From Corynebacterium resistens DSM 45100 (GTDB taxonomy: Bacteria; Actinomycetota; Actinomycetes; Mycobacteriales; Mycobacteriaceae): a stretch of DNA of 64,000 bases. The stretch lies in NCBI RefSeq assembly GCF_000177535.2, contig NC_015673.1:1922001-1986000 (forward strand). The letters are read 5' to 3'. A program made the translations under genes and the position numbers. A model generated the notes under the pieces. That model did not search any database, was not told the DNA's origin, and worked only from the letters and a program-made list of their open reading frames with translations. Below are positions 3,663 through 3,903 of the stretch, piece by piece (within the stretch, counting starts at the first letter, position 1; each line of letters starts with the position of its first letter).

Positions 3663-3761
3663 ATGATTGAAAACGTAGCAACCTTCTTCACCGGCATCGT
3701 CAAGCTGATCGCTGGTGGCCTGAACGCCCTGGTTAACCTGTTCGCTGGCCTCTTCGTTTAA
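3663..3761 (+). CDS. 32-residue amphipathic peptide, porin-like or PSM-like
   Basis: A small gene: ATG at 3663, TAA at 3759-3761, with a good ribosome site (GAAAGGA, about nine bases upstream). The 32-residue product starts MIENVATFFTGIVKL and has no cysteine, no signal peptide and no processing leader. Polar or small residues fall at 4, 7, 11, 14, 18, 21, 25 and 29, the spacing of one face of an alpha helix, so the peptide should fold as an amphipathic helix with a strongly hydrophobic opposite face. It is isolated from other genes and has its own terminator. Known corynebacterial PorA/PorH porin subunits are similarly short, unprocessed amphipathic helices; phenol-soluble-modulin-like or bacteriocin peptides are alternatives. 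No clear homologue is recognised, so function is inference. Confidence 0.72.
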   Translation: MIENVATFFTGIVKLIAGGLNALVNLFAGLFV

Positions 3762-3783
3762 GAATTTAAACGACCACTACAGC

Positions 3784-3843
3784 GAGGTTTAACCACCTCA
3801 CCAGAGGGATAACTCCCTCAACGCCGCTAAGCCTAGTTAGCGG
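3784..3843 (+). promoter_or_regulatory. Three consecutive hairpins in the 3' UTR of the small peptide gene
   Basis: Three perfect short stem-loops follow each other between the peptide stop and its terminator: GAGGT/ACCTC (3784-3788 with 3795-3799), GAGGGA/TCCCTC around a TAAC loop (3804-3809 with 3814-3819), and CCGCTAA/TTAGCGG (3824-3830 with 3837-3843). This arrangement fits protection of a short mRNA from 3' exonucleases and high expression; that role is inferred. Confidence 0.6.
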
Positions 3844-3855
3844 TACACCACCTTC

Positions 3856-3903
3856 AAAGAATCCCCAATCTTGCCATGTGCAGAATTGGGGATTCTTTAT
3901 TTT
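3856..3903 (+). terminator. Strong intrinsic terminator of the small peptide gene
   Basis: AAAGAATCCCCAAT (3856-3869) pairs perfectly with ATTGGGGATTCTTT (3885-3898), a 14-bp stem with a 15-base loop, followed by TTATTTT. It closes a monocistronic unit of about 250-300 bases holding the peptide gene. Confidence 0.88.

Follow-up and report, generated by a model that had tools for sequence, protein, structure and literature searches.

Corynebacterium resistens DSM 45100 (chromosome of 2,601,311 bp; PMC3350403) encodes a leaderless, amphipathic peptide of 32 aa in the window, i.e., the whole stretch of 64,000 nt that was analyzed (NC_015673.1, positions 1,922,001 to 1,986,000). Judged by its sequence conservation, this ORF is a real, conserved coding gene. 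It belongs to a peptide family that we have found so far only in genomes of Corynebacterium, and we see about an even chance that its product is an additional peptide of the mycolate outer membrane, working like PorA, PorH, and ProtX and expressed from a sigma-D-like promoter. An abundant envelope peptide is favored because of the codon usage of the gene and this type of promoter.

The ORF (MIENVATFFTGIVKLIAGGLNALVNLFAGLFV) occupies positions 3663..3761 of the plus strand, with ATG at 3663, 32 codons and the TAA at 3759-3761 included. A ribosome-binding site (GAAAGGA, 3648..3654) lies 8 nt 5' of the ATG, and the sigma-D-like promoter site spans 3581..3605 on the same strand (-35 element GTAACG at 3581-3586, 16 nt, -10 element GTT at 3603-3605). 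Downstream, again on the plus strand, follow three hairpins (GAGGT/ACCTC with a loop of 6 at 3784..3799; GAGGGA/TCCCTC with a loop of 4 at 3804..3819; CCGCTAA/TTAGCGG with a loop of 6 at 3824..3843) and an intrinsic terminator (3856..3903), whose 14-bp inverted repeat (3856-3869/3885-3898) is followed by the T-rich tail TTTATTTT, reaching 3903. The original prediction had thus placed the ORF with its ribosome site, the three perfect hairpins, and the terminator correctly, and its description of a stand-alone transcription unit is a fair one. The divergent neighbor is the NAD(P)H-hydrate epimerase/dehydratase gene nnr (1492-3387, minus strand; Pfam YjeF_N and Carb_kinase). On the other side lie a hydrophobic 137-aa ORF (4504-4917, plus strand) with no credible Pfam or NCBIfam match, a tRNA gene (5191-5264, minus strand; its counterpart in genome G158 is typed as tRNA-Leu), and a Ppx/GppA phosphatase gene (5273-6820, minus strand).

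Evidence for a coding gene comes from Corynebacterium auriscanis (genome G033), where the orthologue CAURIC_07860 shares 81% identity with the window peptide (single-sequence search, E 1e-11). The two genes differ at 4, 2, and 11 sites in codon positions 1, 2, and 3, respectively (dN 0.106, dS 0.560), and the orthologue keeps the ribosome-binding site, the promoter motif, and the hairpin layout. We regard the ORF as real because of this conservation with its synonymous bias. Lack of conservation of the ORF and hairpins in relatives had been named as counting against the original prediction; in C. auriscanis, both are conserved. That ordinary intergenic DNA would have produced ORF and hairpins by chance agrees with the annotation libraries, which contain no match to the window peptide, but is refuted by the conserved orthologue and its flanking signals, as well as by 32 protein-database clusters at E<=0.01, all of them devoid of Pfam domains, and the probability that we leave to it is negligible. 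The codon adaptation index of the gene, calculated with enolase and groEL2 as reference set, is 0.783, compared to 0.696 for enolase (itself in the reference set) and 0.873 for the canonical porin gene. Only one out of 510 32-codon segments from other window genes (enolase excluded) and none of 5000 recodings drawn at random with average codon usage reach this value. Such codon usage is typical of a highly abundant product, and the peptide is therefore probably abundant.

To delineate the family, 22 loci were filtered mechanically by start, ribosome site, residue pattern, and hydrophobicity, yielding 35 peptides; this filter leans mildly toward helical peptides, and weak members in G161 and G239 are outside the counts. 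At E<=1e-4, a 35-row profile gave 39 matches, distributed over 18 of 242 Corynebacterium genomes, with the restriction that most of these matches were the profile members themselves, making the profile E-values circular. The carriers include C. jeikeium Cj47444, C. dentalis, and Candidatus C. faecigallinarum. Two or more copies are present in eight of the 18 carriers, and 30 of the 35 members have AAAGG at most 20 nt from the start. Looser searches of 201 Corynebacterium genomes returned 32 genomes at E<=10 with the single sequence, many by chance, and 122 at E<=1 with a 25-member profile, mostly by chance. A search at the level of the taxonomic family matched six out of 401 genomes, one of which, G239, contains a distant member (E 2.3e-4); all six belong to Corynebacterium, and no match was obtained in the 30 other genera sampled. 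A pattern scan yielded 12 stretches, of which five, located in other phyla, are regarded as chance matches. Plasmids and phages, searched with the window peptide as query, gave no match apart from one chance hit to a phage (E 5). In the open-licence literature, to which the search was confined with subscription papers outside its scope, no paper on this peptide family was found.

The original prediction also described the peptide as amphipathic and leaderless, which is a fair call: its helical moment (best angle 100 degrees) was reached by 0 of 2000 shuffles, and inspection revealed no signal peptide. All 35 peptides are amphipathic, each with a helical moment that is significant relative to shuffles of the same peptide (p<0.05), and their best angles lie between 96 and 100 degrees. 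AlphaFold2, run on 27 sequences, predicted one helix comprising residues 2-31 (mean pLDDT 94.1, pTM 0.49). The peptides have a length between 27 and 41 aa (median 32) and a net side-chain charge from -6 to 0, and contain no Cys, Arg, or Trp. The average mass of the window peptide is 3354 Da, or 3382 Da with formyl-Met. Throughout the family, the Met is probably retained, since Ile or Phe follows it.

None of 1000 dinucleotide shuffles matched the three perfect stems (at least 5 bp, with loops of 3-8) that are present within the 97 nt preceding the terminator, and the folding energy of this region has a z-score of -4.65 (300 shuffles); for the 150 nt 3' of the stop codon, the z-score is -8.0. 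The three-stem layout is not unique, being present in 34 of 6391 overlapping 97-nt segments of the window, which correspond to about ten separate sites including that of the peptide gene. A simple terminator scan misses the terminator because its loop, 15 nt long and enclosing an inner stem, exceeds the limit of the scan. In C. auriscanis, the predicted fold 3' of the stop shows the same succession of three hairpins and terminator, with partly different bases (z -4.83); hairpin 3, for instance, is CCGCTAA/TTAGCGG in C. resistens versus CCGTCAT/ATGACGG in C. auriscanis, and a strict count (perfect stems of at least 5 bp, loops of at most 8) leaves only one hairpin there. Across the family, the 150 nt past the stop fold more stably than shuffled sequences in 30 of 35 members (z < -2; mean -3.8), a value to which the terminators contribute. 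Three separate hairpins are absent from most members, notably the more distant ones, and a T-rich stretch is absent in seven out of 35 according to a crude test. The earlier idea of a transcription unit built for stability is plausible, given the three hairpins in the predicted fold of C. auriscanis, and the hairpins and terminator would probably shield an abundant mRNA. At the 5' side, 18 of the 35 members have a leader stem of at least 6 bp, versus 4.5 expected; no leader hairpin is claimed for the window gene because its longest perfect stem measures only 4 bp (p 0.985).

Upstream of 12 of the 35 members, we found the motif GTAAC-N17-G[AT]T (first of the 17 nucleotides not C), which is present upstream of none of 78 mechanical control ORFs and had a mean of 0.07 and a maximum of 2 in 500 first-order Markov resamples. 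One of the 12 sites lies far out (-147), four belong to a C. jeikeium-like group, and the 12 members represent, in our judgement, about six lineages; the remaining 23 members have no such motif. GTAAC alone precedes 21 of 35 members versus 11 of 78 controls. The sigma-D consensus described for C. glutamicum consists of -35 GTAAC(A/G) and -10 GAT (PMC6338062). This C. glutamicum consensus in its full form, GTAAC(A/G)-N16-GAT, is present in four out of 35 members, not including the window gene, which has GTAACG-N16-GTT with a -10 element given in the same source as the sigma-H form (PMC6338062). In C. glutamicum, porA, porH, and mycoloyltransferases are said to belong to the sigma-D regulon, and deletion of the anti-sigma factor RsdA raises ProtX (both PMC11175481). 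Genome-wide, the motif is not enriched in C. resistens (20 sites versus 31 for the reversed control), and a tighter form occurs at six sites versus one. As a positive control for the motif, four mycolyltransferase-type genes of C. resistens were read closely; GTAAC is near the start in three and the strict spacing is found in none. A search for RsdA (PF16751), taken as marker of the sigma-D pathway, in 20 genomes, 14 of them carriers, gave three weak matches, including one carrier, with none above the cut-off; it gave none in 14 control genomes, apparently with C. glutamicum among them, and is thus uninformative. Since there is neither a genome-wide enrichment nor a mycolyltransferase-type gene with the strict spacing among the four, the motif argues strongly for a common control of part of the family, but no more than moderately for sigma-D as the acting factor. 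Members without GTAAC at L058 7066 and L069 (genomes G116 and G040) have a different upstream element in common in its place, located around CGTAGATT or CGTACATT, which suggests a second promoter type inside the family.

The family genes are often located close to tRNA genes. A tRNA gene (Leu, Ala, Pro, or Asn/Met) lies within 1.5 kb in eight of 21 loci, namely the window (5191-5264), L067, L058, L064, L065, L072, L069, and L075, compared to an expectation of about 6% per locus (an upper bound, with 50 tRNA genes per genome). The corresponding P is 1.5e-5 uncorrected and 0.002 after collapsing the loci into 16 groups according to our judgement. This count excludes four tRNA-free loci of 3 kb (L002, L009, L012, and L173), of which L002 repeats L074; the remaining three, negative as well, have too little flanking sequence. 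None of 12 porin loci (11 kb each) contains a tRNA gene, as compared to one of 19 other 3-kb stretches of C. resistens. The genes are distributed as if they spread or were kept at tRNA hot spots, a post hoc lead. Only 36 matching nt are left of the adjacent tRNA gene in C. auriscanis (L074 5925-7236), and an integrase ORF of phage type (PF00589, E 2.7e-15) comes after it, pointing to an island inserted next to the peptide gene. In the same species, GC-rich direct repeats, nearly identical and recurring about every 60 nt, were seen by eye within the nnr frame (L002, ~770-1110).

According to the reading that we prefer, this is an independent gene that would be highly expressed under the control of a sigma-D-like promoter responding to envelope stress and would give a leaderless 32-residue amphipathic helix, translated without signal peptide. 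The peptide would leave the cell by the same route as PorA, PorH, and ProtX, insert along the mycomembrane, and self-assemble with the polar stripe inward, forming a small channel or patch that would alter the permeability of the envelope and supplement the canonical porin. The main rival is an unlikely one, a released surfactant or cytolytic peptide similar to the phenol-soluble modulins, i.e., a leaderless, anionic to neutral helix with formyl-Met that targets other cells, surfaces, or biofilms. The peptides share the size class and the missing leader, contain no Cys or Arg, carry a charge between -6 and 0, occur in multiple and often tandem copies in eight of 18 carriers, and probably keep their Met, with Ile or Phe as the next residue. 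Moreover, a periodicity of about 98-100 degrees is typical for membrane-surface helices. Homology to the modulins was nevertheless rejected by Pfam and PDB profile searches, as no modulin family of Pfam matches at E<=1 (35 members) or E<=10 (27 members) and the top PDB profile match, modulin beta 2, is taken as chance because of its E-value of 0.14 and its two pieces being out of order. There is no exporter among the classified neighbors of the window gene (nnr, ppx-gppA, and the tRNA), and the sigma-D-like promoter points toward the envelope; retention and release are separated only by these two features, promoter type and absence of a neighboring exporter.

Other functions of a small helical peptide are still less probable. 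The small size, the missing leader, the helicity, and the variability across species and copies would also suit a leaderless bacteriocin directed against competing bacteria, for which the hydrophobic ORF at 4504-4917 could in principle serve as immunity protein. Known leaderless bacteriocins are cationic, however, and none of the 35 peptides has a net positive side-chain charge; in G158, in addition, the tRNA-Leu gene starts 115 nt past the second peptide gene, leaving no space for an immunity-type ORF. We hence consider a bacteriocin highly unlikely. Very little probability also goes to a type I toxin or a small inner-membrane regulator with the hairpin-rich transcript as control element. Although a hydrophobic peptide encoded ahead of a structured 3' UTR would fit, the codon usage is that of a very abundant protein, no Rfam family scores above the gathering score at the locus, including the 3' hairpins, and a simple sigma-70 scan, which is a weak test, detected nothing resembling a promoter on the opposite (minus) strand of the gene. 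The several copies per genome, the AAAGG before the start in 30 of 35 members, and the equally frequent structured 3' ends (30 of 35) argue against it as well.

A more tentative proposal, which we consider possible with the balance somewhat against it, concerns the family as a whole. The family would be a second, sequence-unrelated class of leaderless outer-membrane helices, whose genes expand into tandem arrays, become established beside tRNA genes, and are controlled by an envelope-stress promoter, so that each species has a variable set of mycomembrane pores or surfactants in addition to the fixed porin of the groEL2-ppk2 locus. Tiny helical porins from one locus are considered the main determinants of permeability in the corynebacterial outer membrane, on which the uptake of nutrients and the entry of antibiotics depend. 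A further family, overlooked by the Pfam and NCBIfam models, would leave the inventories of porins in C. jeikeium, C. resistens, and their relatives incomplete, and the peptides would offer a small, synthesizable test case for how leaderless helices exit the cell and assemble in the mycomembrane.

The comparison with PorA/PorH or modulin-type peptides made in the original prediction is fair, but an identity of the window peptide as canonical porin does not hold. The gene is located between nnr and tRNA/ppx-gppA instead of groEL2-ppk2, where C. resistens carries a separate canonical porin gene (MNFEILEQVGKFFGGLGNIFKGLFDVIKVAMGWAGK; 57.9 bits against the PorACj model). The window peptide has no match in Pfam or NCBIfam, with none at E<=10 to the PorACj, PorA, and PorH models, and a single one of the 35 members touches NCBIfam PorACj (NF038022) with 18.3 bits, under the cut-off of 28 bits. 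Profile-profile comparison with the PorACj-type porins by hhalign (probability 9.4) led us to reject homology. At groEL2-ppk2, eight of 12 loci read carry an ORF above the PorACj cut-off (28 bits), and G158, G015, G048, and G037 have PorA/PorH-like ORFs that are all below the cut-offs. We also rejected the family as a stand-in for a missing canonical porin: genomes G015, G116, G048, and G081 all carry por-like ORFs, and the new family is thus additional there.

Phenol-soluble modulins resemble the family in size class, amphipathicity, missing leader, and tandem copies, and differ by the absence of a profile match and of an exporter among the classified neighbors of the window gene. PorACj, the homo-oligomeric cell-wall channel of C. 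jeikeium (NF038022), has these features in common with the family: a leaderless amphipathic helix of similar size (36-46 aa in six aligned PorACj-type peptides) and moment, with a very high codon adaptation in C. resistens and a hairpin between stop and terminator. This hairpin (TTAACGAG/CTCGTTAA) of the canonical C. resistens porin gene lies just past L098 4097, in a 3' layout resembling that of the window gene, and the canonical C. auriscanis porin gene likewise has a hairpin between stop and terminator. The differences from PorACj concern the locus (groEL2-ppk2), the lack of profile homology, and the promoter, as none of eight por genes has a sigma-D-like site upstream (one has GTAAC alone). 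The best angle is 102-108 degrees in nine por peptides versus 96-100 degrees in the new family, and the helix packing may therefore differ; the new peptides are also somewhat more hydrophobic on average. PorACj and PorACur are described as single leaderless helices of 37-40 aa that suffice alone for a channel. PorACur of C. urealyticum (37 aa; PMC5944148) thus resembles the window peptide as one small leaderless helix forming a channel unaided, and differs by its location at groEL2-ppk2. Genome G158 encodes a 37-aa ORF at groEL2-ppk2, plus three copies of the new family; by length and place, this ORF would be the counterpart of PorACur.

PorA and PorH of C. glutamicum are larger (45 and 57 aa; PMC12632848) and are O-mycoloylated on Ser. 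Ser is absent from the window peptide, which contains two Thr, and its C. auriscanis orthologue has neither residue, making O-mycoloylation at those residues impossible in the latter. The canonical PorACj-type porins of C. resistens (L098 3987, plus strand) and C. auriscanis (L099 4662, plus strand) contain no Ser or Thr either; this modification is therefore inapplicable to them and unusable as a test. With PorA/PorH and ProtX, the last likened by description rather than by direct sequence comparison, the new family shares the character of small, leaderless, helical proteins, which in C. glutamicum belong to the mycomembrane and are under the influence of sigma-D (PMC12632848, PMC11175481).
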